Below, piece after piece: positions 1 to 23,500 of a DNA stretch of 64,000 nucleotides (within the stretch, counting starts at the first letter, position 1; every line of letters begins with the position of its first letter). The DNA is from Paludibacteraceae bacterium (GTDB lineage Bacteria; Bacteroidota; Bacteroidia; Bacteroidales; Paludibacteraceae). The stretch covers positions 186,001 through 250,000 of the forward strand of contig JAEERP010000004.1 of the NCBI GenBank assembly GCA_016285885.1, written 5' to 3'. The translations under genes and the position numbers were made by a program. The notes beneath the pieces were generated by a model. That model saw only the letters and a program-made list of their open reading frames with translations, did not search any database and was not told the DNA's origin.

Positions 1-333
1 TTGCACAACACCTCCTACCAGCCGTTGCCACCATTCCAACCAGGCTGTGAGGATGAATCCACCTCCATGATGGAGTTCATCTATCCGAAGGATTTCCGGG
101 CATTGTATATCCCGAAGGAGATGGACGGGAAACGGGGAGAGGTTATCTTCGAGGTGGCGCATCGTCATACGGATAAGACGCTCTACTGGCATCTGGACGA
201 GACCTATTTGGGCGAGACGAAACGGTTCCATCAGAAGGGCATCAGCGCGACGGAAGGAGAACATACGATTACGGTGGTCGACGAGGATGGAAACCGTTTG
301 GAGAAACGCTTTAAGGTGATCGTGACGGAGTGA
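1..333 (+). CDS. pbpC: Penicillin-binding protein 1C, C-terminal fragment
   Basis: The frame is open at the left edge, so this is only the last 110 or so codons; the TTG at position 1 is not a credible start. The visible protein matches the C-terminal domain of penicillin-binding protein 1C (BiPBP_C family), with a short all-beta segment built around YWHLDETYLGET, EGEHTITVVDEDG and a terminal KRFKVIV strand. In complete proteins this domain follows a glycosyltransferase and a transpeptidase domain and acts in the periplasm in peptidoglycan synthesis, often beside an alpha-2-macroglobulin gene. Neither catalytic domain is in this window, so the assignment rests on the tail alone. Confidence 0.75.
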   Translation: MHNTSYQPLPPFQPGCEDESTSMMEFIYPKDFRALYIPKEMDGKRGEVIFEVAHRHTDKTLYWHLDETYLGETKRFHQKGISATEGEHTITVVDEDGNRLEKRFKVIVTE

Positions 334-429
334 GGTTTCTCAGGGTGGAGGATTCCTTTTTTATGTTTTTCCGTGCTTGCCGCCAAGCCTTGCTGTGCGG
401 CCTTATGTCGCTTTTTTCTTTCTTCTTTT

Positions 430-460
430 TTTGCCTATATGTTATTTGTTTGTAACTTTG
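430..460 (+). promoter_or_regulatory. Bacteroidota promoter for the 486-5351 cassette
   Basis: TTTG at 430-433 and TAACTTTG at 453-460 are separated by exactly 19 bases. This fits the Bacteroidota sigma-ABfr consensus (TTTG, about 19 bases, TAnnTTTG). The first start codon is 26 bases downstream of the -7 box. The genes behind it run without gaps, so this is likely the main promoter of the cassette. Confidence 0.75.
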
Positions 461-485
461 TAGAGGATAATACATTAGAAATGTT

Positions 486-1157
486 ATGAAAAACGGTAAG
501 AAGATAGTTGCAATGGTACCCATTAAGCTAAATAGCGAAAGGGTGAAAGAAAAAAATTTGCGTGTCTTTTGTGATGGCAAGGTATTGGTCCAGTTTATAT
601 TAGAAGCATTGTTGGAAAGCAAATACGTTGATGAGGTATACGTTTACTGTAGTGATGAAAGAATAAAAGGGTATTTGCTTGATGGTGTGAAGTTCTTACG
701 TCGCCCGGAATATCTGGATTTGAACACATCCAATTGTAATGATATAATTCGTGAGTTCATGAAAGAAGTGAAGTCCGATTATTACGTGGTTTCACATGCG
801 ACCGCTCCGTTCACGACTTCTGATAGTATTGACCGCTGTGTCGATAGTGTGGTTGACTCGGAGCAGTATGATTCTTCTTTTACCGTGGAAAAAATCCAAA
901 CGTTTATGTGGACGAAGGGGAAACCTATGAACTTCGACCCTAGCCATTTCCCGCGCACGCAAGATTTGGACCCGATCTATGTTGAGACGTCAGGCGCCTT
1001 TGTCTTTCCGAGGGAAGTGTTTGAGAAATATGATCGACGCATAGGCGTTCGCCCATGTTTGGTCGAGGTCGATGCGAAGGAGAGTTGCGATATTGATACT
1101 GAGTACGACATGATGGTCGCTCAGTCACTGTATATGTATAAAATGAATAATAAGTAA
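486..1157 (+). CDS. Acylneuraminate-type cytidylyltransferase
   Basis: A 223-residue protein of the CTP_transf_3 (NeuA/KdsB-like) fold. Enzymes of this family join CTP and a 2-keto-3-deoxy sugar acid to give a CMP-sugar and pyrophosphate in the cytosol. The N-terminal nucleotide-binding loop reads VPIKLNSERVKEKNLR, a variant of the IPARGGSKxxxxKN loop of CMP-sialate synthetases. Further conserved stretches are SHATAPF (about residue 100), FPRTQDLDPIYVETSGAFVF (about 157-176) and the acidic DIDTEYD near the C-terminus. It is the first gene behind the promoter at 430-460, and the aldolase gene starts two bases after its stop. There is no neuB, kdsA or neuC here, so the substrate is unknown; the aldolase-TPP-HAD context suggests an unusual keto acid. 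Confidence 0.82.
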   Translation: MKNGKKIVAMVPIKLNSERVKEKNLRVFCDGKVLVQFILEALLESKYVDEVYVYCSDERIKGYLLDGVKFLRRPEYLDLNTSNCNDIIREFMKEVKSDYYVVSHATAPFTTSDSIDRCVDSVVDSEQYDSSFTVEKIQTFMWTKGKPMNFDPSHFPRTQDLDPIYVETSGAFVFPREVFEKYDRRIGVRPCLVEVDAKESCDIDTEYDMMVAQSLYMYKMNNK

Positions 1158-1158
1158 T

Positions 1159-2193
1159 ATGAGTTTTCAGATTTCAGATTGCACAATTCGTGATGGTGGC
1201 TATTTGACGGGAAAGGTCTTCCCTGATGAATTCGTTCATGGTGTTTTGGAGGGTTTGGTTAATGCGGGAATCGATTATGTCGAGGTCGGCTTCCTTCAAA
1301 AACAGGTTAATGGGGAACCGATTGTATACCTCGACTCGAAAGGTGTGATGAAATATCTTCCAAAGGATAAGAAGGGAACCGAGTTTGTCGGTTTTTGTGA
1401 CAATAGCAGATACTCCATCGATTTATTGGACGAATGTGATCATCAGTCATTCGAGAGTCTACGTATATCATTTGCGAAACACGAGAGCGCTGAGGCTTTG
1501 AAGTTTTGCGCTGCCGCCAAGCAGAAGGGATATCGCGTGTTTGTTCAGCCTATGGATGCTCCTGGTTATACATTCGAGGAGCGGGCGAAGATGATCGAGG
1601 AGGTGAACAAAATGCAACCGGAGACGTTCTCGATTGTGGATACCTTCGGAATCATGGATATGCATGAATTGCGTGGAATTTTCCATCAAGTCGATGAACT
1701 CTTGGATAAGAACATTAAAGTTGGTCTGCACTCCCATAATAACTTGAATCTGTCGTGCGCTTTGGTTGAGGATTTGATCAGCATGGCGGAGAAAACGGAT
1801 CGTAGTGTGGTTGTGGATGGTGCTTTGTTTGGTATGGGCCGTGGCGCTGGAAATGCTAATACGGAGGCCATTGTGCATCTTCTTAACAAGAGATATGGTA
1901 AGAACTATGATCTTCCTCTATTGTTGGATGTGATAGAGAAATATATTGTTCCGTTGAAGTCTCAGGTGCGCTGGGGATACGATATGCCGATGTTTGTGTG
2001 CGGTTCTCAGTGTTCACATGTGGACAATGTATACTATATAGAGCGGACGAAGAAGGCTTCCGTTCGTGACATGTATGAGGTTCTAGGTTCTTTGAGCGTC
2101 GATAAAAGGAAACGATATGGAACTGGCTATTCCAAGAATGATTTTTCCTTGCTTCAGGAATCTCTTGATTCATATTACAAAGAAAAGAAATGA
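1159..2193 (+). CDS. HMGL-like (DRE-TIM) aldolase
   Basis: A 344-residue TIM-barrel metalloaldolase-type protein. It shows the family signature DCTIRDGGY at residues 7-15, the metal-binding GLHSHNN at about 189-195 and the G-rich GMGRGAGNANTEA near 225. Known relatives are 4-hydroxy-2-oxovalerate aldolase, HMG-CoA lyase and the isopropylmalate/homocitrate synthases, which make or break C-C bonds next to a keto acid using a divalent metal. The best fit is the 4-hydroxy-2-oxovalerate aldolase branch, which condenses pyruvate with an aldehyde. The stop overlaps the next start as ATGA at 2190-2193, a sign of translational coupling to the TPP enzyme. I infer that it makes the keto-acid skeleton later activated by the cytidylyltransferase. 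The exact reaction cannot be read from the sequence. Confidence 0.8.
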   Translation: MSFQISDCTIRDGGYLTGKVFPDEFVHGVLEGLVNAGIDYVEVGFLQKQVNGEPIVYLDSKGVMKYLPKDKKGTEFVGFCDNSRYSIDLLDECDHQSFESLRISFAKHESAEALKFCAAAKQKGYRVFVQPMDAPGYTFEERAKMIEEVNKMQPETFSIVDTFGIMDMHELRGIFHQVDELLDKNIKVGLHSHNNLNLSCALVEDLISMAEKTDRSVVVDGALFGMGRGAGNANTEAIVHLLNKRYGKNYDLPLLLDVIEKYIVPLKSQVRWGYDMPMFVCGSQCSHVDNVYYIERTKKASVRDMYEVLGSLSVDKRKRYGTGYSKNDFSLLQESLDSYYKEKK

Positions 2194-2723
2194 CGTGTGC
2201 AGAGTATTTGGTTGATTTCCTGATCTCTCGTGGTGTGACCGATGTTTTTGGTTATGCTGGAGGGTATATCGTGCCGTTCATGGATGCCTTGCGGATGCGT
2301 AATGATGAAATACGTGTGCATGTTTGTTACAATGAGCAAGGATGTGCGTTCGCCGCTAATGGATATGCGCGCGTGAGCGGACAAATCGGCGCCTATTTTA
2401 CGACTTCTGGTCCGGGGGCGGTGAATGCATTGGGAGGTCTTGCGGATGCTTGGTTCGATGGGGTGCCAATGATGGGGGTATGTGGAAATGTGCCTACCAA
2501 TGAGATGAAAGGCTTTTCGGGAATCCGTCAGAATGGTTTCCAAGAGATGGACATTGTTTCGATGACTCGTCACATCACGAAATATTCAGTTACTCCTATG
2601 AGTGCGGAGGAGTTTCCGGATGTTGTCTCTCGCGCATATAATATGGCAATGACAGGTAGAAAGGGGGGTGTTTTAATTGATTTTCCATACAACATACAAA
2701 AAGCCAGTCTTACTGGTCGGTAA
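2190..2723 (+). CDS. TPP-dependent enzyme, N-terminal (PYR) part
   Basis: 177 residues covering the pyrimidine-binding domain of an acetolactate-synthase-like TPP enzyme. FGYAGGYIVPFMDAL and NEQGCAFAANGYAR carry the glutamate that activates the thiamine ring, and TTSGPGAVNALGGLADAW follows. The domain reaches its normal last strand (GGVLIDFPYNIQ) and then meets a stop after KASLTGR. The rest of the enzyme continues in another frame from about 2700. Relatives have some 35-45 residues between this strand and the central domain, and these are absent, so a small deletion plus frame change is likely. It may be a disabled gene, an assembly error, or less likely a two-chain enzyme. The start overlaps the aldolase stop. 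Confidence 0.75.
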   Translation: MTCAEYLVDFLISRGVTDVFGYAGGYIVPFMDALRMRNDEIRVHVCYNEQGCAFAANGYARVSGQIGAYFTTSGPGAVNALGGLADAWFDGVPMMGVCGNVPTNEMKGFSGIRQNGFQEMDIVSMTRHITKYSVTPMSAEEFPDVVSRAYNMAMTGRKGGVLIDFPYNIQKASLTGR

Positions 2724-3786
2724 TGGCGCTCGTTTTTCGGGTGCGGTTGACTTGATCCATGAATTTGTCAAAAGGACTCATGTGCCTGTGCTGACTACGA
2801 TGAATGCGGTCGATTTGGCGCAGGATGATATTCGTTTGGGTTTCATTGGCACCTATGGCAACCGTGTCTCCAATATGATCCTCTCAGAATGTGATTTGCT
2901 CATCTCTGTGGGCGCTCGTTTGGGATTGCGCCAAATAGGCCATGTGCGTGAGCGCTTCGCTCCTAAGGCGAAGCTCATCCGTGTTGACATTGACCCTAAT
3001 GAGTTGAGCCGAATTGTCAAGGATGATGAGAAACAATATCTGATGGACGTGTCTGCGTTTTTGCGCCAATTGTTGACTGAGGATGTGCCAGACTTCTCCG
3101 ATTGGTGGTATCGTTGTATGAAAGCCAAGGACCTTTTGTCCCAATATGATGACGAATTGGGTAATGTGGTGGTGAAGAAGATTTCTTCCCTGTTGCCTCC
3201 TAATCCGATTGTCTCTGTGGATGTCGGCCAAAATCAGTGTTGGTGTGCCCAATCGCTCTCTTTGAAAGGAGATAAGGGACGCATCTTGATTGGGGGAGGT
3301 TATGGCTCCATGGGATGTGGCTTGCCTATGGCTATCGGCTCGTCAATCGCTACGGGTAAGGGTGTCGTTTATTGTATAACGGGTGATGGTGGACTGCAGA
3401 TGAACATCCAAGAATTAGAATCGGTTGTGGCGGAACACCTTCCTGTGAAGATAATTGTAATGAATAACCATGCTTTGGGAAAAATCAGTGAGATACAATA
3501 CGTTTCTTATGGTTCCCGATATGCGCAAACAACGCATGGAAGCGGTTATTGTGTCCCGGCTTTCGAGAAGATAGCTGAGGCGTATGGTATCCGCTCTGTG
3601 GCATTGGAATCCTATGAGTCATTGGATGCTTATGCCGGATGGTTGCTTGATAAGGATCCTTGCCTTATCAATATTAATATGCCGGAAAACACGTTGCTGA
3701 TTCCGAAAATCAAGTGGGAGTCGGGTGAAATTTTGCCTAAACTCACGGAAGATCTTTTGCGTGAGGTGAATGATTTACTACGCTAA
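2677..3786 (+). CDS. TPP-dependent enzyme, central and C-terminal part
   Basis: This frame holds the central and C-terminal domains of the same acetolactate-synthase-like enzyme. The central domain starts at KPVLLVGNGARFSG, directly where the first fragment ends. The C-terminal domain has the TPP/Mg motif GDGGLQ...VMNN (about residues 237-263) and a full-length tail. The only possible early start is TTG at 2677, preceded by the purine-rich run AGAAAGGGGGG, so independent translation is not excluded. Relatives use TPP for decarboxylation or for transfer of an acetaldehyde unit from pyruvate; a YerE-like branching reaction on a sugar is one possibility. The intact C-terminal domain suggests recent disruption or retained use. 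Confidence 0.72.
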   Translation: MIFHTTYKKPVLLVGNGARFSGAVDLIHEFVKRTHVPVLTTMNAVDLAQDDIRLGFIGTYGNRVSNMILSECDLLISVGARLGLRQIGHVRERFAPKAKLIRVDIDPNELSRIVKDDEKQYLMDVSAFLRQLLTEDVPDFSDWWYRCMKAKDLLSQYDDELGNVVVKKISSLLPPNPIVSVDVGQNQCWCAQSLSLKGDKGRILIGGGYGSMGCGLPMAIGSSIATGKGVVYCITGDGGLQMNIQELESVVAEHLPVKIIVMNNHALGKISEIQYVSYGSRYAQTTHGSGYCVPAFEKIAEAYGIRSVALESYESLDAYAGWLLDKDPCLININMPENTLLIPKIKWESGEILPKLTEDLLREVNDLLR

Positions 3787-3797
3787 CTCTTTGGGAT

Positions 3798-4292
3798 ATG
3801 TATAAATTTTTGGTGATGGACGTCGATGGCACGTTGACCGACGGGAAAATATATGTGGGTAACGATGGTGAACTTTTTAAATCATTTGATGTGAAGGATG
3901 GTTGCGGAATCGCTGTCGTCCTTCCTAAGTATGGTGTCATCCCTGTTGTTATCACAGCACGTAAAAGTGCTATTGTCGCTAATCGTTGTAAGGAACTGAA
4001 TGTGAAGGAGTGTAGACAGGGCGTGATGAATAAGTATGAAGTTCTATGCCAAGTCCTTGCCGATTATTCCCGTGCGGATGGGGTGGAATATACCTTGCGG
4101 GATGTCGCCTATATCGGAGACGACTTGGTGGATTTGCAATGCATGATGCCTGTCAAGTCTGCGGGAGGTTTGGTCGCATGCCCTTCTGACGCCATAAGAG
4201 AGGTGAAGGATATCTCTGATTATATTTGTTCGAATAGGGGAGGTGACGGCGCTGTCCGGGAGCTGATTGATTGGATGGTTGGTAATGCATAG
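3798..4292 (+). CDS. KdsC-like HAD phosphatase
   Basis: A 164-residue haloacid-dehalogenase phosphatase of the cap-less KdsC (KDO-8-phosphate phosphatase) type. DVDGTLTDG at residues 8-16 carries the two catalytic aspartates, ITARKS at about 52-57 is motif II, and YIGDDLVDLQCM at about 109-120 is the metal-binding motif. In KDO and sialic acid routes such enzymes remove the phosphate from the newly made keto sugar before CMP activation. The same role fits here, between the TPP enzyme and a CMP-sugar-type transferase. The length is normal for the family and the protein looks intact. Substrate specificity cannot be told from the sequence. Confidence 0.85.
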   Translation: MYKFLVMDVDGTLTDGKIYVGNDGELFKSFDVKDGCGIAVVLPKYGVIPVVITARKSAIVANRCKELNVKECRQGVMNKYEVLCQVLADYSRADGVEYTLRDVAYIGDDLVDLQCMMPVKSAGGLVACPSDAIREVKDISDYICSNRGGDGAVRELIDWMVGNA

Positions 4293-4313
4293 TGAAATGT
4301 CATAATAGAAAAA

Positions 4314-5351
4314 GTGGAAAGAGAACTTAACAAGTCATATGCGATTTGTCTCTGCATATCTCCTTATGCGTTGTTGCTCTATATGCTTGTCGCTGAGGAG
4401 GATAAGGCTAAAAACGAGACACTCTATGTCTTGGGTAAAGGCATCAGTAGGATTGTCTGTGACCGTCTCTCGGGTATCTATCTGGAGACAATTAACGGAA
4501 ACTCTTTAAAAGACAAGGCAAAGCGCTTCCTCAGCAAACTGCAGATGCGTGGCTTCTGGCGGCGTCAGGGAATTGATGTGCGGAATCATGAGATCTTTGC
4601 GCAGGATCATGCGGTTCTCTCTATTCTGCTGAGAGACGTCAATTACAAGCTTCTGTCGGACGGACCGAAGTATTTCTCTATTAACATGCAGGAGGATAGT
4701 ACGGAATATCGTAGGCTTTTGGCGAAAAGGAATTCGCTGGAGGGCAAGTTGGCCCGCCTCTTTTATGGTAATGTGGCGGTCTCTCCTTTTGGTGATAATG
4801 CGCAATGTACGGATGTCTATCTGACGGAGGAGGATTCTTCCCCTGTTTTGAGAAATAAGATCCTTCATGTGCATTCTTTCCAAGAGTTATGGAACGGATC
4901 GTCCGAGGAGAAACGCTCGTTTGTTAATTCGGTCTTCGATGTCTCCTTGGAAGATGTCTCTTTCCTGAATCGGAAGAGCGTGATCTTTTTTAGCCAGCCT
5001 TTGGTGGCGGACGGTATTCTTTCCGAATCAGACTACATGGAGCTGTTGAAGCGGATTTTCTCTAGATATGACCATGAGAGATTGTTGATTAAGACACATC
5101 CTAGGGACAAGTATGATTATAGAACATTATTCCCTGATGTGGAGGTCTATGAAAAGAGCGTGAATGTTCAGTTGTTGGTGCTGAATGGCCTCAAGGTGGA
5201 AAGGGTGGCTACGATTTTTTCTTCCTCTGTTGACGCTTTCCCGGAGTCTGTCGAGGTGGATTGGTTCGCTAATGCGCATCCTGTCACAAAGGCTTATTGT
5301 GGAGGCACGTTGAAACCTCATAGGAGATTCAATGATATCCTTTCCGTGTAG
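4314..5351 (+). CDS. Putative GT52/sialyltransferase-like glycosyltransferase
   Basis: A 345-residue protein with a GTG start. The N-terminus (YAICLCISPYALLLYML) resembles the opening strand of GT52 lipooligosaccharide sialyltransferases (ICLTPLQ...). The C-terminal half has LLIKTHPRDKYDY, matching the HP motif, and TIFSSSVDAF, matching the serine-pair motif of bacterial GT-B sialyl- and polysialyltransferases. In those families these residues handle the CMP moiety of the donor. As last gene of a cassette with a cytidylyltransferase, it probably transfers the CMP-activated product to a surface glycan. The acidic DDG-type motif of the family was not clearly found, so a distant or divergent member is likely. 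It ends in a hairpin shared with the convergent gene. Confidence 0.6.
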   Translation: MERELNKSYAICLCISPYALLLYMLVAEEDKAKNETLYVLGKGISRIVCDRLSGIYLETINGNSLKDKAKRFLSKLQMRGFWRRQGIDVRNHEIFAQDHAVLSILLRDVNYKLLSDGPKYFSINMQEDSTEYRRLLAKRNSLEGKLARLFYGNVAVSPFGDNAQCTDVYLTEEDSSPVLRNKILHVHSFQELWNGSSEEKRSFVNSVFDVSLEDVSFLNRKSVIFFSQPLVADGILSESDYMELLKRIFSRYDHERLLIKTHPRDKYDYRTLFPDVEVYEKSVNVQLLVLNGLKVERVATIFSSSVDAFPESVEVDWFANAHPVTKAYCGGTLKPHRRFNDILSV

Positions 5352-5371
5352 TTGGGGGCGTTATCCCAACT
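5350..5371. terminator. Hairpin between convergent genes
   Basis: AGTTGGG at 5350-5356 pairs with CCCAACT at 5365-5371 across an 8-base loop. It overlaps the stop codons of the plus-strand transferase and the minus-strand glycosyltransferase, so it can act on both. No long T tract follows, so its strength is uncertain. Confidence 0.45.
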
Positions 5372-6215
5372 CCTCTTCGTAACGTTTGATCAGTTCCTCT
5401 ATCATGTTGTCTTTGCTTGCCACTTTCTTCCAATAGGATCCATTGATGGTGTGTAGCCATGTACGGTCGAATATTTCCACCTGGTCTTGATGCCGGAGCC
5501 CTCCTTCCCTGAAATCCTCGAGATATTCTGTTGCGAACCGGATGGTGTTGGGGTCAATCTTCGCATAGATGTCATACCAATTGCCACCTCCCGAGTCTAA
5601 ATAATCTCCATCTACCTGTACGGGCATGAAATCCACTTTTTTCCCTTGCATATATGAAAAATTGAAGAAGAACATGATAGCGGACAGATACCACTTGTCC
5701 TTCTTCTCTCCTCTTTCCCTTTTTACTCCATAGACGGGCTGGTCTTTTAGTAGGCTCTTGATGTCGATGCCTTTTACGGGGAAAAGATCGTGGTCGATGA
5801 ATCCGAAGTAGGTGGGTCTCCTGTTCGACACCACATGTTTGTAGGCCCAATTGAGCGCCGCTGCGTGAGAGTAGCTCGGACCGATTAGGTTCAGGTGATT
5901 CTTGGGCAGGCGTATGTACGATACGTTCTCCTTCTGACAGATTCTCATGATTTTGTTCGACTCTTCCTCGTTGGATGAGTTATCCGCTACGATATAGGAG
6001 TAGTTGCCCAAGATGTGTTTGCGCACGCAACGGATTTGGTTTTCAATGACCACAGGATTGTTGAACGCAATGGTGATGAGATCCACGTCGTTCTCCTCTC
6101 GCTTCTCTTTAAGGGTGAGGTTGAGTTGGGTGCAGTTCTTTTCGTTGTGTAAATTGTGGATCTTCTCTAATCCGCGGACTGCCAGCCTGAAAAGCATACG
6201 TTTGGGTGTCATCAT
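5361..6215 (-). CDS. GT-A type glycosyltransferase-like protein
   Basis: A 284-residue cytosolic protein that looks like a divergent family 2 (GT-A) glycosyltransferase. DLITIAFNNPVVIENQIRC (about 45-63) is the first nucleotide-binding strand and helix, YIVADNSSNEEES is the second strand, and YFGFIDHDLFPVKG (about 135-148) carries a DHD triad in the place of the DxD metal site. There are no membrane segments after the N-terminal basic stretch. It is the last gene of a minus-strand group with a second glycosyltransferase (17-base gap) and a YfhO protein, so surface-glycan assembly is the likely role. Donor and acceptor cannot be predicted. Confidence 0.62.
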   Translation of the reverse strand: MMTPKRMLFRLAVRGLEKIHNLHNEKNCTQLNLTLKEKREENDVDLITIAFNNPVVIENQIRCVRKHILGNYSYIVADNSSNEEESNKIMRICQKENVSYIRLPKNHLNLIGPSYSHAAALNWAYKHVVSNRRPTYFGFIDHDLFPVKGIDIKSLLKDQPVYGVKRERGEKKDKWYLSAIMFFFNFSYMQGKKVDFMPVQVDGDYLDSGGGNWYDIYAKIDPNTIRFATEYLEDFREGGLRHQDQVEIFDRTWLHTINGSYWKKVASKDNMIEELIKRYEEELG

Positions 6216-6231
6216 GATGGAACTCTTTTCT

Positions 6232-7152
6232 TTAGTGTCCTAATAATCCTTTGGTTACGTTGAATCTGAATTGAAGCAATTTCCAGCCCTTGAGGGGGGA
6301 TAGCGTTAGGGTGTAGAATAGGAAGAACACGATGGATGCTCCCCATTTGACGAGTTCAGAAAGAATCCGTTTCAGGTATTTGAGTGTGGATATGTTCTTG
6401 GTCCGTATTCTCTCGCTTTTCCCGATGGAGTGCGTCAATTTATCGAAGTACTCTTTCTGCAGTTTCTTCTCGGGGATAATATGGTATAGGATCGCGGTCG
6501 GCAAATAGAAGAATCTTAGGCCTATTGTGGTCATCTTGTCGAAAATATCTTTCTCCTCTGCGCCGATTAGGCTATCGCCTTTCCTCCCCAAATCCACGTT
6601 GAATAGACCCACCTTGTCGAACACCTCTTTCCTGTATGCTGCGTTTCCTCCGCCGGGGAATGCGTTTTTGGGGAATTCCCTCTCTTTGTCTCCGAGGTAT
6701 AGTTTGCCCGTCAGGAGTTGTCTCGTGTATGGGGACATCCAATTGGGTTCCTCCGTCTCGTAGAGGGGGAGGATGGGCCCTCCTGCCGCATGGATATTAG
6801 GGTTCTTGTCGAAAAAGTCCGTGTAGGTCTGGAGGTATTCTTTGTTGATGAGGGCATCGTCGTCCACATAGACGATAACACTTCCGTGGGACTCCTTGAT
6901 GCCTCTATTCCTTGCGTAAGAGAGGCCTTGCGACGTCTCTATGTGATAGTTGAACTTAACGGAGGGATAATCTTTGCGGAAACGTTCACATTCCGATTCG
7001 GTATTGTCTGTGCTGTTGTTATTCACTAGCACAATCTCGAACTGGTCCGAACTCAATGTGTTCTCGGCCACACTCTTCAGCAGGTTGTAGATATATTTCT
7101 CCCTGTTGTAGGTGCAGACGATAACGGATAGCTTTATTTCCCCGTTTGACAT
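6232..7152 (-). CDS. Family 2 glycosyltransferase
   Basis: A 306-residue GT2 enzyme. LSVIVCTYNREKYIYNLLKS (about residues 8-27) is the nucleotide-binding start, EIVLVNNNSTDNT is the second strand, SYARNRGIKESHG is the conserved ARN-G region, and YVDDDALI (about 95) is the DxD metal site. FPGGGNAAYRKEVF and GAEEKDIFDKM match the acceptor region of GT2 proteins. A hydrophobic stretch near the C-terminus (ASIVFFLFYTLTLSPL) may attach it to the inner membrane. Its start overlaps the end of the upstream YfhO gene by 19 bases, so the two are probably co-translated. Sugar specificity is unknown. Confidence 0.85.
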   Translation of the reverse strand: MSNGEIKLSVIVCTYNREKYIYNLLKSVAENTLSSDQFEIVLVNNNSTDNTESECERFRKDYPSVKFNYHIETSQGLSYARNRGIKESHGSVIVYVDDDALINKEYLQTYTDFFDKNPNIHAAGGPILPLYETEEPNWMSPYTRQLLTGKLYLGDKEREFPKNAFPGGGNAAYRKEVFDKVGLFNVDLGRKGDSLIGAEEKDIFDKMTTIGLRFFYLPTAILYHIIPEKKLQKEYFDKLTHSIGKSERIRTKNISTLKYLKRILSELVKWGASIVFFLFYTLTLSPLKGWKLLQFRFNVTKGLLGH

Positions 7153-9626
7153 ACTAAGCTTGTTTTTTTGTTCTTCCTATCAAAGTAGATGGCGACACCT
7201 ATTCCGATGATAAGAAGGAATGACATGATGGTCTCTATCCTTTTCAGATTCCAGTAGGTGTTTGGCTCGAATTTGAATTCGATGTTATGGTCGCCTGCAG
7301 GAATCCTAAGGCCTCTTAGAATCCAATTGGCGCGGAAGTGATCCACCTTTTTTCCGTCGATGTATGCGTTCCATCCTGGTTGGTAGTATACCTCCGAGAA
7401 GAGGGCGATGTTTTCTGCGTTTCCTTGAGATTTATATTTCACGCACATAGGCGTGTAGTCTGTCATTTCGATCTTCGCATTGTCATCCATTGGGGCGTTC
7501 TTTCCCGCCACAGCCTCAAACGATTTATCTATGACGGCCGTGGTCTTAGGGTCAATACGATCCAACGCGGTCATCTCCTCGTCCGCATTGTTCACGTATT
7601 CGATGTTTTTGACGAACCATGCGTTCCCGTTGGCGCTCTTGTTCCTAATGGCTCGTATGTTGTCTTGGAGAATGATGTAACGTGTGTTCAGCATGTCCAA
7701 TATCGGGGTCTTCGCCTGAGATACCATGGAATCTGCCTCTTCGATTGTTCTAGCTCCTTTGCTGATCTCCTGCTGGATGACTTGCATCTCAGGAGCGATG
7801 TGGAGCTCTATTAGGTCTTGGTATCTGCGCAGTTTCGCCGCATTGTATCCTCCGATGGATTTATGGAAATAGCTGACGTTAGTGTCGTTGAATGTGTTGT
7901 TGAAGGTCAAGACTCTGTAAGATGGGTCTTTGTCCTGGAGAATATAGTTGTCAGCCTCTGTTTTTGTATAGCTCTTCACCTTCGCCTTTTTGACGAAATT
8001 GTTCTCGCTGAGGTATCTCCTGTCCACATTCCAAAGATCGATTATGGTGAGTGCGGCGATGGCGGCTAAGAAGTATGGCATGCGCTCCTTGAATCTTGTG
8101 GAGATTATCAGGATGGCTGTTGCCGCCAAGATGAAATACAGTGACCTCCATGCGTCTTTGACGAATATCGCTTCCCTATCTTGGACAAGTGCGTTATAGT
8201 ACCAATCCGGTAGTTTGTTCCCAGCGTCTTGGGCGGACTGAAATGATAGGAATTGTGATCCGAAAAGTGCCATTATCAGGCAAAAACCGCCTGTTATGCC
8301 AGCTGCTATATAGATGGATTTGTCTAGTTTCTCCTTGCTTATGGCCCCTTCGCTAATCTCTTTCAAGGCTAAACATCCCAACCACATGAAGGTTAGTTGC
8401 GGGATGACCAAGGCCATGGACGGGGTCCTGAACTTGTTGTAGAATGGCAGATGGTGGAATAGGAAGTCGTTGATGCTCATGCAGTTTCCTCCCCAACTCA
8501 TGATGATAAGGAAGGCTGTGGCACCGACTACCCACCATTTGTATTTATTGTTCACGATTAGGAGGGCAAGCACGAAAAGGAAGCATACGACGGCTCCGAA
8601 GTATACTGGGCCGGACGTGAACCTTTGTTCTCCCCAATAGGTGTACGAACGTAGTGGATTCGACACTTGCGCGTTGTGATTCCGCAAAGCCTTTGCCAGG
8701 TGGGAGTCTGATGATAGCTCTCCTCCCGATGCTCCTCCGTAGAAATTAGGGATGAGCAATGTGAATGTTTCGCTCTTCCCGTAACTCCATTCAAATGCAT
8801 AGCTTTGGTCCAATCCTGTGGACTTGTCGTCTTTGCCATCTATGTTGGAGGTCAGCTCCGATTTGCCTCGTATACTCGTTTCGCTCATCTCCAAGTTAGA
8901 GTATAGTTGGGCGGAGTTGAGGATCAAGGATACCACAATGCCTGCTAATAGTGTGAGCGTCGTTTTGATGATTTCGTCTTGCTTCTTTTCTCTCAGTTTG
9001 TTGACGATGTATCCTATGAAGAAGATGAGACAGAGGATGAGTAGGTAGTAGGTGACCTGGATGTGCCCATGCCTAATGTTCTCCGTGAGTGAGAAGGCGA
9101 AGAAACATCCTCCCATTATGAGTTTCCCTCGCATGACCAGTAACATACTGGCGATGACGATTGGCATGGTCGCCATTACCCAACCTTTGGTCACGTGCCC
9201 CGCATCAATGATGATGGGAAAATAGGAAGAAAAGGCGAAGGCGAAGGCTCCGAATATGGCGATTGGTATCGAACAACCTAATGTGATACACAATGCGTAA
9301 CCGCATAGTAATGCAAGTAAAATGATGGCTGCTGTCTCCACGTTGAGCCATCGAATCGGAGCCTCTATGATGTCTATGCCATTGACGAAATTGTTTGGTG
9401 TGCTGACGGTGTAGGCGGGCATTCCTGAAAACATACTGCCACACCAAGCGACATTCTCTCCGCTCTCTTTATGGAAGTCTGAGGCTTCTTTGGCCATCCC
9501 TTGCCATTTGATTTGATCTCCTTGGGGTAATTCTTTCCCTTGAAATTGGGGTAAAAAATAGATGATGGTAGCGACAAAGAAGAATAGGATGCATCCTACA
9601 TGCTTCCATATTGATTTATTTTTCAT
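7134..9626 (-). CDS. YfhO-family polytopic membrane protein
   Basis: An 830-residue inner-membrane protein with about a dozen hydrophobic segments in its first two thirds and a soluble C-terminal domain before a last membrane helix. It matches the bacterial YfhO family, GT-C-like proteins proposed to glycosylate lipid or polymer carriers. FFVATIIYFLPQFQGKELPQ lies in the first segment, and the tail has YYQPGWNAYIDGKKV and GDHNIEFKFEP, typical of YfhO. I chose the ATG at 9626 because an earlier in-frame start at 9656 would overlap the promoter -7 box. Located with two glycosyltransferases, it probably helps decorate a surface glycan. Confidence 0.8.
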   Translation of the reverse strand: MKNKSIWKHVGCILFFFVATIIYFLPQFQGKELPQGDQIKWQGMAKEASDFHKESGENVAWCGSMFSGMPAYTVSTPNNFVNGIDIIEAPIRWLNVETAAIILLALLCGYALCITLGCSIPIAIFGAFAFAFSSYFPIIIDAGHVTKGWVMATMPIVIASMLLVMRGKLIMGGCFFAFSLTENIRHGHIQVTYYLLILCLIFFIGYIVNKLREKKQDEIIKTTLTLLAGIVVSLILNSAQLYSNLEMSETSIRGKSELTSNIDGKDDKSTGLDQSYAFEWSYGKSETFTLLIPNFYGGASGGELSSDSHLAKALRNHNAQVSNPLRSYTYWGEQRFTSGPVYFGAVVCFLFVLALLIVNNKYKWWVVGATAFLIIMSWGGNCMSINDFLFHHLPFYNKFRTPSMALVIPQLTFMWLGCLALKEISEGAISKEKLDKSIYIAAGITGGFCLIMALFGSQFLSFQSAQDAGNKLPDWYYNALVQDREAIFVKDAWRSLYFILAATAILIISTRFKERMPYFLAAIAALTIIDLWNVDRRYLSENNFVKKAKVKSYTKTEADNYILQDKDPSYRVLTFNNTFNDTNVSYFHKSIGGYNAAKLRRYQDLIELHIAPEMQVIQQEISKGARTIEEADSMVSQAKTPILDMLNTRYIILQDNIRAIRNKSANGNAWFVKNIEYVNNADEEMTALDRIDPKTTAVIDKSFEAVAGKNAPMDDNAKIEMTDYTPMCVKYKSQGNAENIALFSEVYYQPGWNAYIDGKKVDHFRANWILRGLRIPAGDHNIEFKFEPNTYWNLKRIETIMSFLLIIGIGVAIYFDRKNKKTSLVCQTGK

Positions 9627-9650
9627 TGCATTATTTAATTTTATACATTT

Positions 9651-9680
9651 TTGCAAAGGTAATAAAAAAATGTGATTTAG
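9651..9680 (-). promoter_or_regulatory. Promoter element of the YfhO operon
   Basis: The reverse strand carries TACCTTTG (9654-9661), a full -7 match, 28 bases before the chosen ATG. A 30-base stretch including this box and an A/T-rich run recurs with one mismatch at 10783-10812 in front of trpS. Confidence 0.7.
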
Positions 9681-20544: not shown

Positions 20545-23500
20545 ATGAGAAGAGTTATTACGCTTTTATGTCTGGTTTTGGGCATTGGATGCAAGATGCT
20601 TGCCATGAACGGAACGGGTACGGCGGAAGATCCGTACCAGATTAGCACTGCGGACGATCTCTATGAGTTCGCGGACATAGTCAGTGGTTTGCACAAAAGT
20701 ATCGATCAGAACCTTAATGCACATGCTGTTTTGATGAACGACATTACCATCAATGAGAACGTTTTGGACGAGGAAGGCAATTGGAACCGCAAGGGAGATT
20801 TCAGAGAGTGGAGGCCTATCTGCAAGTACCAAGTAAGTGGTGCCCGGGGATATCAGGGTGTGTTCGACGGGCAGAAGCACGTCATCCGAGGCGTCTATTG
20901 CACGGAAGGCGGGGATATGTCCGGCTTCTTCTCCGTGTTGAGCTCGGGGGCTGAGGTTATCAACGTCGGTTTCGAGGATTGCTACATTGAATCCTCCATG
21001 GGCAGGGACGGCGGCATTTGTGGACAGTGTTGGGGCGGTCACATCCGTAACTGCTATTTCATCGGAGTGGTGGATGGTGATGGTTCTGAGATTGGAGGAA
21101 TTTGTTCCTTGATAGATTCCGGAACAATAGAAAATTGTTTCAGCGTGGCCAACTTGTCAGGCCATTCGAGGGTGGATGGCATCTGTGCCATCAACCAAAA
21201 GTCGGAGATTCGTAATTGTTACTCCATGCCGCTCAAAGGTGCGGACACGGAGCTGAAGGAGCGGTTCCTCACGGGTGAGATCGCGTATCTCCTGCAACAA
21301 GGGCAGACGGAGCATGTATGGGGACAGAGGATCGGTGTGGACAAGCATCCAGTCTTTGACGGCAATAAAGTCTATGCTTGTACGGATAGTGTTCTTAAAT
21401 ATTCCAATCATGTGGACTGTGGGGAATCCCATGTGTTTGATCATTGCGTCTGCACTTATTGTGGCTATCGTGATACCACATGTGCCTGTGAACATGTTTA
21501 TGACAATTGTGTCTGCACCTATTGCGGCGCATGCGATACGACGTGCTGGTTCAATATCTATACGGTCGATGACCTCTATAAGTTTGCGGAGATCGTGTAT
21601 GGGGTTAATTGTAAGGTGAATGCACGATTGATGAATGACATCACCATCAACGAGAACGTGTTGGATGAGAACGGGAACTTGAATGAGGGGTCATTCCGGG
21701 AATGGGTCTGTAAGAAAAAGAACGGAGACTACTATCAAGGCATTTTCGAAGGGAACAAACATGTGATTCGAGGAATATACATAGAGGATGGCGGCGACAG
21801 AGCCGGCTTTTTCTCTCAGTTATATAAGGGAGAGGTGAGAAACCTTGGAATCGAGGACTCTTACATTGCCTCCAGTATGGGCAGGTGTGGCGGTATCTGC
21901 GGACAGAGTTGGAAGTCGACCATCAACAACTGCTATTTCATTGGTGTGGTCAAATGTGGAGGTAACGAAGTGGGCGGAATCAGCTCTTTAAATGAAGGAA
22001 TACTCAGCAACTGTTTTTCTATATGTAAATTAACATCTGCATCTGGCGAGATGGACCCTGTCTGCAGGGTGCTAAAAAAACCTATAGAGAATTGTTATGG
22101 CATGTATATGTCGGAGGCGTCGGGTTCCGAACTGAGGAGGTCTTTCGAAAGTGGAGAGGTTGCTTATCTTTTGCAGAATGGGCAGACGGAGCATGTTTGG
22201 GGACAGAAAATCGGTGTGGACAAGCATCCAGTCTTCGATGGTGATACGGTCTATGGGTCGACTCCATGCCCGCAATCTTTCTCAAATACGCAGAGTGACG
22301 AGGTGATAGCTCATGATTTAGACCATTGCGTCTGCAAGGCCTGTGGTTTCCGTGACACCACCTGTGTCTGTGAGCATGTCTATGACCATTGTGTCTGCAC
22401 TTATTGTGGCTATCGTGATACCACCTGCATCTGTGAGCATGTCTATGACCAGTGTGTCTGCACTTATTGTGGCTATCGTGATACCACCTGCATCTGCAAG
22501 CATGTCTATGTTCGTTGCATCTGCATCTATTGTGGGGAGGCGAATCATGATTTAGACCATTGCGTCTGTAAGGTCTGCGGTTTCCGTGATACCACGTGTG
22601 TCTGTGAGCATGTCTATGATCATTGCTTCTGCATCTATTGTGGGGAGGCGAATCATGAGTTCGACAACTGCTATTGTGTCAACTGCAAGGCTAGGGATAT
22701 TACTTGCACCAACCATGAGCATCGTTTCGAGAATTGTTATTGCGTTTGTGGAGAACCTGACACAATTCCTGATTGTTGGTTCAACATATATACGGTCGAT
22801 GACCTCTATAAGTTTGCGGAGATCGTGTATGGGGTTAATTGTAAGGTGAAAGCACGATTGATGAACGACATCACCATCAACGAGAACGTGTTGGATGAGA
22901 ACGGGAACTTGAATGAGGGGTCATTCCGGGAATGGGTCTGTAAGAAAAAGAACGGAGACTACTATCAAGGCATTTTCGAAGGGAACAAACATGTGATTCG
23001 AGGAATATACATAGAGGATGGCGGCGACAGAGCCGGCTTTTTCTCTCAGTTATATAAGGGAGAGGTGAGAAACCTTGGAATCGAGGACTCTTACATTGCC
23101 TCCAGTATGGGCAGGTGTGGCGGTATCTGCGGACAGAGTTGGAAGTCGACCATCAACAACTGCTATTTCATTGGTGTGGTCAAATGTGGAGGTAACGAAG
23201 TGGGCGGAATCAGCTCTTTAAATGAAGGAATACTCAGCAACTGTTTTTCTATATGTAAATTAACATCTGCATCTGGCGAGATGGACCCTGTCTGCAGGGT
23301 GCTAAAAAAACCTATAGAGAATTGTTATGGCATGTATATGTCGGAGGCGTCGGGTTCCGAACTGAGGAGGTCTTTCGAAAGTGGAGAGGTTGCTTATCTT
23401 TTGCAGAATGGGCAGACGGAGCATGTTTGGGGACAGAAAATCGGTGTGGACAAGCATCCAGTCTTCGATGGTGATACGGTCTATGGGTCGACTCCATGCC

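Follow-up and report, generated by a model that had tools for sequence, protein, structure and literature searches.

A pyruvate-type aldolase and a probable two-subunit ThDP enzyme suggest an undescribed acidic surface sugar in gut and rumen bacteria

The routes to sialic-acid-like sugars and to Kdo start, to our knowledge, with a PEP-dependent synthase. Among the YerE-like carboligases of LPS branched-chain sugars, ErwE does not use pyruvate and favours longer donors, 4-hydroxy-2-oxo acids among them, according to a review (PMC12247030); pyruvate aldolases yield products of this class. The locus described here, located in a window of 64,000 nucleotides (the whole stretch of Paludibacteraceae DNA that was analysed), is a rare cassette of gut and rumen bacteria that seems to serve the formation of an unusual acidic surface sugar, and its combination of a pyruvate aldolase with a two-subunit, carbon-joining ThDP enzyme points to a sugar of so far undescribed chemistry. 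Our main reading, to which we assign a probability of roughly 0.6, is that the cassette forms an operon dedicated to one CMP-activated 2-keto sugar acid (ulosonate), derived from pyruvate and with an unusual branched or extended skeleton, which would be transferred to a surface glycan. No such pathway was found among the listed titles and abstract openings of the open-licence literature searched.

Upstream of the cassette, on the forward strand from which it is read, lies a promoter-like sequence, TTTG-N19-TAACTTTG (positions 430–460), which ends 25 bases ahead of the first ATG of the cassette and is of the −33/−7 type, a consensus that we take to be a Bacteroidota promoter type. Six matches of this type occur in the window against 1.1 expected, and none of 100 shuffles reached six. 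The presence of a single such match ahead of the cassette agrees with the one promoter claimed in an earlier note on this DNA, and the ATGA overlap described there between the aldolase gene and the next gene is also present; the gap between the cytidylyltransferase and aldolase genes, given as 2 bases, measures 1 base. Facing the cassette from the reverse strand are two GT2 glycosyltransferase genes (5361–7152; PF00535), and beyond them on the same strand is a gene for a YfhO-type membrane protein (7134–9656; PF09586), all of which probably belong to one glycan locus with the cassette. The second of the two GT2 genes recurs near 6 of the 17 complete cassettes compared below, and a YfhO-type gene near 8, the window being included in both counts. 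The base composition of the cassette is similar to that of its flanks.

The first gene (486–1157) encodes a NeuA/PseF-related cytidylyltransferase (CYT), a predicted CMP-sugar-acid synthetase that matches PF02348 (CTP_transf_3) at 62.1 bits (cut-off 22.6). Its relatives in the PDB are NeuA-type, and its score against TIGR03584, the PseF model for pseudaminic acid cytidylyltransferases, is 67.9 bits, below the cut-off of 205.7. The KdsC-type HAD phosphatase (3798–4292) scores 129.7 bits against TIGR01670 (cut-off 106.95), has KdsC among its PDB relatives and carries no YhcH domain in the window; it is predicted to dephosphorylate the 2-keto sugar acid. The last gene (4314–5351), which has a GTG start, encodes a GT52-like transferase and predicted CMP-sugar-acid transferase (PF07922, 67.3 bits, cut-off 26.1; PF07388, 27.8 bits, also over cut-off). 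The HP and SS motifs previously ascribed to this protein are found at residue 262 and, as SSS, at residue 303. A relative with 29–32% identity lies in the NeuB locus of the same genome, and a PDB search at E 0.01 returned no match.

The aldolase (ALD, 344 aa; 1159–2193) is of the HMGL/DmpG type, with 77.2 bits against PF00682 (HMGL-like; cut-off 29), and with it the four family assignments made earlier (cytidylyltransferase, HMGL aldolase, KdsC-like phosphatase and GT52-like transferase) all hold over their family cut-offs. Its DCTIRDGGY and HSHN motifs are present as quoted, the metal-binding Asp-His-His residues (D12, H191 and H193) are invariant in 17 aligned rows, and its PDB relatives are 3dxi, 8ih7 and 1nvm. 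The catalytic His21 of DmpG aligns to Tyr15 of ALD, itself invariant in 17 rows, which renders the classical pyruvate-aldolase reaction uncertain for ALD. Scores against the 4-hydroxy-2-oxovalerate aldolase models also fall below cut-off (TIGR03217, 77.8 bits against 286; PRK08195, 84.5 against 229). Searched at the nucleotide level, E. coli genomes contained no match to the aldolase. Of 63 distant matches (L050–L112, 27–30% identity, mostly Paenibacillus and Cohnella), 57 stood in loci devoid of further cassette relatives and six had an ALS-like match. One close aldolase match (L049) covers residues 44–207 at a contig edge, where it is accompanied by no other cassette gene.

The comparison of gene neighbourhoods covers 17 complete loci, namely the window and 16 named loci from 15 assemblies, in Bacteroidales and Lachnospiraceae-type Firmicutes; one carrier is Lachnoclostridium sp. 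Marseille-P6806 (L036). The genes for CYT, ALD and the two ThDP subunits (PYR and MPP) are contiguous in all 17 (CYT of L035 is cut by the contig end), and this co-conservation favours the single pathway proposed earlier; a lack of co-occurrence elsewhere, which would have refuted that proposal, is contradicted by the recurrence of the order in the 16 named loci, which span two phyla. What the sequences themselves show is the order of the genes, their families, the split of the ThDP enzyme, its YerE-type signature and co-conservation. KdsC directly follows MPP in 12 of the 17 loci and lies 1–3 kb away in 2, and in the other 3 the flanks fetched yielded no KdsC; in 5 of 14 cases it is fused to a YhcH-type (sialate-anomerase-family) domain. 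The transferases near the cassettes are GT52-type in 5 of 17 loci, polysialyltransferase-type in L039 and GT99-like, below cut-off, in L043. In four loci the product of the next gene is not recognisable as a CMP-ulosonate transferase: it is without a Pfam match in L033 and L041, an epimerase in L034 and a weak GT4 match in L045. In L047 there is a weak MptE-like match only. Support for the previously claimed CMP-2-keto-sugar setting comes from KdsC, from the KdsC–YhcH fusions in relatives and from the CMP-ulosonate-type transferases that some of the loci have.

The accompanying claim that NeuB and KdsA are lacking stands for the cassette, and no PEP-dependent synthase was found among the ten proteins of positions 1–9656 that were scanned, but it does not extend to the genome, which has NeuB on another contig (G000:C13) and, on G000:C12 at a distance of about 158 kb, a KdsA-like protein that was assigned to KdsA from its length and on visual inspection. 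A keto-sugar-forming dehydratase is absent from the cassette, unlike in yersiniose-type clusters. A phosphonate pathway was considered and rejected, since none of the ten scanned proteins is a PEP mutase. A KdsD-type gene directly precedes the cytidylyltransferase gene in L046 and lies beside a second cytidylyltransferase gene in L033. A Kdo backbone derived from arabinose-5-phosphate was nevertheless given little weight, because the KdsD-type genes of L038 and L039 sit in a housekeeping-like neighbourhood with IspD and another KdsC.

Where a single TPP-enzyme gene had been described, we find two open reading frames in different frames, encoding a small subunit (PYR, 177 aa; 2190–2723) that consists of the PYR domain only (PF02776) and a large subunit (MPP, 369 aa; 2677–3786) with the M and PP domains (PF00205 and PF02775). 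The ALS-type domain set, with all three domains over cut-off, is therefore spread over two polypeptides. PYR has a Glu49 of the catalytic type, and the GDG...NN cofactor motif of MPP is invariant in 15 aligned rows, as are Lys269 and Glu272 of its putative acceptor pocket. Searched with PYR, 295 genomes of the order gave three cassette members, with frames of 178–184 aa, and the others among the matches listed were frames of 565–625 aa, except one of 292. A plasmid search with MPP gave 27 records; the 15 listed are annotated as acetolactate synthase or carry no annotation. The best reading of these sequences is that PYR and MPP are the small and large subunits of one YerE-like ThDP enzyme. The YerE-type mark used here, a six-residue insertion before FQE with the motif [IV]RQ-GFQE that AHAS lacks, is a feature found in this analysis and not a published criterion. 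It is present in all 17 cassette proteins; of 28 full-length ALS-like proteins fetched from Bacteroidales, 27 are without it. The sole exception (L136, in L156) stands among RfbG-, RfbH- and reductase-like genes in a yersiniose-like cluster. The cassette enzyme also retains FQE and the arginine of GLRQ, which have roles in carboligation. The insertion is likewise found in 5AHK (as IRQ-GFQE, the form also present in L156), which we take to be PpYerE (Hampel 2018, as cited in PMC12247030) and which is listed under the molecule name acetolactate synthase II. With an altered motif it occurs in 8RPH, identified as JanthE in an excerpt of PMC12188165. FastTree grouped the cassette and YerE types against AHAS with a support of 0.991, and IQ-TREE placed the cassette with JanthE (96/80, with a long-branch warning) and PpYerE apart from the cassette.

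We infer every substrate, the order of the aldolase and ThDP steps, and the product as follows. ALD would add the enolate of pyruvate to a probably phosphorylated aldose, generating a 4-hydroxy-2-oxo acid phosphate and replacing the PEP-dependent NeuB/KdsA step. PYR and MPP would then assemble, decarboxylate a 2-oxo acid and join the resulting acyl unit to a carbonyl, an event by which the skeleton would become branched or extended. Either pyruvate or, after the manner of ErwE, the product of the aldolase might serve as the donor; the C2 unit suggested earlier is only one option, because ErwE does not use pyruvate and favours longer donors (PMC12247030). KdsC would take off the phosphate, and the fused YhcH-type domain of some relatives may open or flip the ring, after which CYT would make the CMP-sugar and the GT52-like enzyme would transfer it. 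ThDP coupling at the 2-keto carbon would, however, remove the group that NeuA-like enzymes usually activate, such that the second and fourth steps misfit unless an assumption is added. Also counting against the main reading are Tyr15 of ALD, the absent dehydratase, the position of PpYerE and the long-branch warning in the IQ-TREE tree, the loci whose next gene is no recognised CMP-ulosonate transferase, the isolated aldolase match of L049 and the three loci in which KdsC was not found.

With respect to the split, a frameshift, whether a broken gene, a sequencing error or a programmed +1 event giving one fused enzyme, would account for the 47-base overlap of MPP with PYR in the +1 frame, which is seen in 10 of the 17 loci, the window among them, and for the conserved TTG start of the second half. 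In the window this TTG follows an A/G-rich, Shine-Dalgarno-like run, which also encodes a conserved GRKGG and is therefore not independent evidence of a start. We nonetheless consider a frameshift highly improbable, and an error was rejected because all 17 loci are split alike. The overlap is 32 bases in one locus and 4 bases (ATGA) in six, the latter starting from an ATG in the −1 frame, and a clear GGAGG run is visible by eye in four of the ATGA type (L040, L041, L044 and L046); moreover, L047 carries an ATG and a stop at the position of the others' TTG. Also missing is the linker, which in the full-length YerE-type protein of L156 measures 43 residues between the flanking strands, and it is likewise missing in a characterised split-gene transketolase according to an excerpt of its report (PMC7661550). 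Just as hard to credit is the notion that PYR and MPP form an acetolactate synthase or a catabolic enzyme lying beside sugar genes by chance. In its favour, acolac_lg is the top NCBIfam model for each half, though below cut-off, and E. coli AHAS I is the second-ranked PDB match of MPP. The halves score 158.1 and 226.1 bits against TIGR00118 (AHAS), or 384 together, against a cut-off of 538 that is set for whole proteins and hard on halves. A housekeeping acetolactate synthase was rejected since the genome has a separate full-length ALS, the cassette enzyme falls outside the AHAS clade (clade support 100/97) and it carries the YerE-type insertion; strict co-conservation with the cytidylyltransferase and aldolase across two phyla argues in the same direction.

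A rather unlikely, but more substantial, alternative is that the aldolase alone makes a CMP-activated 2-keto-3-deoxy acid, with the ThDP enzyme serving as a decarboxylase that supplies the aldehyde (2-oxo acid to aldehyde and CO2), in which case the pair would lengthen a 2-oxo acid by two carbons and introduce no branch. Two congeners (G003 and G006) have, in the same neighbourhood, a cassette of a cytidylyltransferase and a 527-aa aldolase beside an 84% identical GT52, and no PYR, MPP or KdsC relatives were found in the fetched stretches around them; an aldolase and a cytidylyltransferase can therefore be enough. It also fits that 2-keto sugar acids are what proteins of the KdsC and YhcH types act upon (PMC8141875). 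The aldolase of these ThDP-free cassettes is, however, a different one (30–31% identity to ALD of the window) with an extra domain, and hence their product may differ; the C-terminal domain of the 527–533-aa aldolases has no Pfam match over cut-off. The carboligase-type insertion of the cassette enzyme and its retained FQE and GLRQ Arg further speak against a simple decarboxylase. We retain the dedicated operon for a branched or extended ulosonate as the preferred reading. At somewhat less than even odds, and so only tentatively, we propose a new class of route in which a pyruvate aldolase and a two-subunit YerE-type carboligase replace the PEP-dependent synthases to give a C-branched or chain-extended ulosonate, an undescribed kind of monosaccharide, the route having been passed between Bacteroidales and Lachnospiraceae-type gut bacteria.

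The pairing of a pyruvate-type aldolase with a sugar-branching-type ThDP enzyme and CMP activation predicts surface sugars in gut and rumen commensals that, as far as our searches show, have been overlooked. The two-gene carboligase, in turn, provides a defined and conserved break point between the PYR and M domains of an ALS/YerE-type enzyme.

Compared with known systems, ALD shares the HMGL family, the Asp-His-His metal site and the RDG motif with the 4-hydroxy-2-oxovalerate aldolases DmpG and BphI, but differs in having Tyr15 at the place of DmpG His21 and in its biosynthetic setting; no aldehyde dehydrogenase partner was found among the scanned neighbours of ALD. The split-gene transketolase of Carboxydothermus is, in the excerpt of its report, likewise one ThDP enzyme made from two genes with the linker lost, although it is of the transketolase type, whereas the cassette enzyme is of the ALS/YerE type and is cut between the PYR and M domains (PMC7661550). 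The sialic acid anomerase YhcH (DUF386) belongs to the domain family fused to KdsC in some cassettes, but its role as described in the excerpt of PMC8141875 is catabolic and feeds an aldolase, while the cassette operon appears biosynthetic and has no such fusion in the window. With the YerE-like carboligases (YpYerE, PpYerE, ErwE and JanthE) the cassette enzyme has in common the domain set, the insertion and a location in surface-sugar loci; theirs is one polypeptide and the cassette enzyme two, and the cassette adds an aldolase, a KdsC phosphatase and a CMP-sugar synthetase and lacks CDP-keto-deoxysugar genes. Finally, the NeuB/NeuA and KdsA/KdsC/KdsB pathways to sialic acids, legionaminic acids and Kdo share with the cassette a NeuA-related cytidylyltransferase, a KdsC-type phosphatase and, in part of the loci, transferases of the GT52 or polysialyltransferase type, but where those pathways have the PEP-dependent NeuB or KdsA, the cassette has an HMGL aldolase and a ThDP enzyme.

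In the window, which lies on contig C12 of a 3.75-Mb genome, the cassette comprises, all on the plus strand, a cytidylyltransferase (CYT, 486-1157), an HMGL aldolase (ALD, 1159-2193), two ThDP-enzyme ORFs, a KdsC-type phosphatase (3798-4292) and a GT52-like transferase (4314-5351). Specifically, PYR (2190-2723) holds the N-terminal ThDP domain only, and MPP (2677-3786) holds the central and C-terminal domains in a different frame. The cassette described in the earlier note is real, but it had been mis-segmented, as its single TPP gene is in fact these two ORFs. CYT, the first gene, is preceded by one promoter-like site of the Bacteroidota type, and two GT2 genes and one YfhO-type gene face the cassette from the opposite strand. 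Elsewhere in the window, a 1896-aa ORF (20545-26235) has no Pfam match at E 1e-5.

The proposal that these genes serve a single pathway is well supported by their recurrence. Relatives were found by scanning genome contigs with two peptide patterns, and the best 80 of 247 were kept; 17 of these 80 (loci L033-L049) are close relatives, with aldolase identities of 55-68%. L049, where a contig edge leaves only aldolase residues 44-207, was left out. The remaining 16 loci represent 15 assemblies, and carry the names Bacteroidales, Bacteroidetes or Paludibacteraceae (12 loci) and Lachnospiraceae, Eubacterium or Lachnoclostridium (4 loci). CYT, ALD, PYR and MPP follow one another without an intervening gene in 17/17 loci, including the window (CYT of L035 is cut by a contig end). 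One assembly, CAMIZG01, carries two cassettes (L043 8643-13656 and L045 9290-12629), the former preceded by a second cytidylyltransferase and a GT99-like gene whose score is under the cut-off.

A close relative of the aldolase was found in its own genome alone among 16 of the genus (next best, 32%), in 3 of 295 genomes of the order, own included, and in 1 of 395 of the phylum, again its own. A second draw of the order gave close relatives in 2 of 393 genomes, in a listing that also includes a distant one (G018). In the large-subunit tree the Bacteroidales proteins form one group (99/95) with four Firmicutes proteins outside, an arrangement that would be compatible with a single passage between phyla.

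The split of the ThDP enzyme is likewise present in all 17 loci, which rules out a frameshift, plausible as that would be for one genome alone. The PYR/MPP overlap is 47 bases in 10 loci, 32 in L047 and 4 (ATGA) in 6, with MPP in the +1 frame relative to PYR in the two longer classes and in the -1 frame in the ATGA class. By eye, Shine-Dalgarno-like runs precede the MPP start in the +1 group, where the same bases encode conserved residues, and in 4/6 of the -1 group; they are weak in L042, L047 and L048. The simplest reading is that PYR and MPP would be two polypeptides, each with its own start. When 295 genomes of the order were searched with the PYR half, 89 had matches at E <= 1e-32; the frames are 178-184 aa long in the cassettes of the own genome, of G260 from the same family and of G135, and 565-625 aa in the remaining matches among those listed, with one exception of 292. 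In all 15 of the 17 rows that were aligned, neither Glu49 (small subunit) nor the GDG...NN motif (large subunit) varies.

With respect to the type of ThDP enzyme, both halves score below the acetolactate synthase (ALS) cut-off, a whole-protein threshold that is a hard test for halves, and a full-length ALS is encoded elsewhere in the own genome (572-aa frame). A careful tree of the 17 cassette proteins, 28 full-length Bacteroidales ALS-like proteins from fetched loci and three PDB fragments closes the AHAS clade at 100/97 with the cassette excluded, and the cassette clade at 100/98. In this tree the carboligase JanthE falls with the cassette (96/80) and PpYerE with L136, one of the full-length proteins (98/84), placements that a long-branch warning leaves less than firm; FastTree groups all four at 0.991. 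A discrete character agrees with this placement beside YerE types: six extra residues with an [IV]RQ-GFQE motif occur in 17/17 cassette proteins (L045 by eye) and in 5AHK (PpYerE), and JanthE (8RPH) has the same insertion with an altered motif. Among the 28 full-length proteins, L136 has both insertion and motif, and the insertion is absent from the other 27. L136, a Bacteroidales YerE-type protein, adjoins DegT-family RfbH-like and epimerase-family proteins and, by eye, reductase-like and RfbG-like ones, and its locus (L156 6310-12151) is a yersiniose-like cluster. Given the trees, the insertion and this setting, we regard the cassette enzyme as YerE-like at the sequence level and as a candidate for the corresponding activity.

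The nearest relatives of ALD are the putative aldolase 3dxi and the 4-hydroxy-2-oxovalerate aldolases, and its metal ligands do not vary across 17 rows. CYT, which belongs to CTP_transf_3, scores far under the PseF cut-off; its plasmid relatives in E. coli and Enterobacter (44-45%) lie two genes ahead of a NeuB-family gene. KdsC directly follows MPP in 12/17 loci, lies 1-3 kb off in 2/17, and was not found in the flanking stretches fetched for L033, L045 and L047. Of the 14 KdsC proteins (one of which, that of L037, is cut by a contig end), 5 carry a fused YhcH/DUF386 domain, by Pfam in L036 (15505-16410) and L046 (12670-13605), and by BLAST in L040 (12658-13581), L042 (12660-13586) and L048 (10040-10975). 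YhcH is described as a sialic acid anomerase supplying the open form (PMC8141875), and the fusion links the pathway with a sugar acid of the 2-keto type. This sialate anomerase family is here seen fused to KdsC in a biosynthetic setting. Two further loci types were observed: in a polysaccharide-type locus from Lachnospiraceae (L033 19642-21023), where Kdo is unexpected, a second cytidylyltransferase beside a KdsD-like gene with a SIS domain; and a distinct HMGL aldolase (~316 aa, motif DCT[IV]RDGG) behind a ~100-aa gene that is chorismate-mutase-like by eye (L028 3732-4995, L029 8544-9931, L030 8509-9777, L031 5713-6999).

TRANSFERASES and context: GT52-type genes lie close to 5/17 cassettes, and a polysialyltransferase-type gene follows that of L039. 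Counted against a CMP-ulosonate-type transferase setting are the next genes in L033 and L041 (no Pfam family), L034 (epimerase) and L045 (weak GT4 match), together with L047, which has no more than a weak MptE-like match. The second GT2 recurs close to 6/17 cassettes and YfhO close to 8/17. In the own NeuB locus (L153 5184-13119; NeuA and legionaminate-like character called by eye), a GT52-type protein sharing 29-32% identity with the window's stands one gene away from a NeuA-like protein.

Taken together, the product is most likely a CMP-activated ulosonate whose carbon skeleton is unusual; searches of open-licence PubMed Central for such a pathway showed none among the titles and abstract beginnings listed. 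We give a probability of about 0.35 to the ThDP enzyme using the aldolase product as donor. According to one review, YerE-like enzymes make branched LPS sugars, and the ErwE donors are 4-hydroxy-2-oxo acids and the like, not pyruvate (PMC12247030); such acids are pyruvate-aldolase products, and this would account for the strict pairing of ALD with the ThDP enzyme. Coupling of a pyruvate-derived acetyl group is, in our judgement, just as tentative a proposal, and some other role is improbable.

An unlikely alternative, in which the enzyme merely decarboxylates a 2-oxo acid to the aldehyde for the aldolase and makes no branch, draws its main support from ThDP-free cassettes. Besides the own genome, a GT52 of 84% identity occurs among the 16 genus genomes only in G003 and G006, where the same neighbourhood holds a different cassette (L026 1295-4622, L027 8124-11433) of a cytidylyltransferase (~42%) and a 527-aa aldolase (30-31%) with a C-terminal domain that matches no Pfam family; no PYR, MPP or KdsC relative was seen in the stretches fetched. 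From this exchange beside the GT52 it would seem that either cassette's product can serve the transferase, and, beyond its use for that alternative, the exchange supports a CMP-activated aldolase product.

Relative to known systems, ALD has Tyr15 at the position of the catalytic His21 of DmpG. In one case only, a Desulfobaculum plasmid (L113 8825-12993), a relative with 28% identity over 98% of the aldolase follows annotated rfbH and a transketolase encoded in two genes, so that in this LPS-type locus an ALD-type aldolase adjoins a different type of ThDP enzyme that is likewise split over two genes. In L156's full-length YerE-type protein the interdomain linker measures 43 residues from one strand to the next; the cassette enzyme has lost it, as has a characterised split-gene transketolase (PMC7661550).
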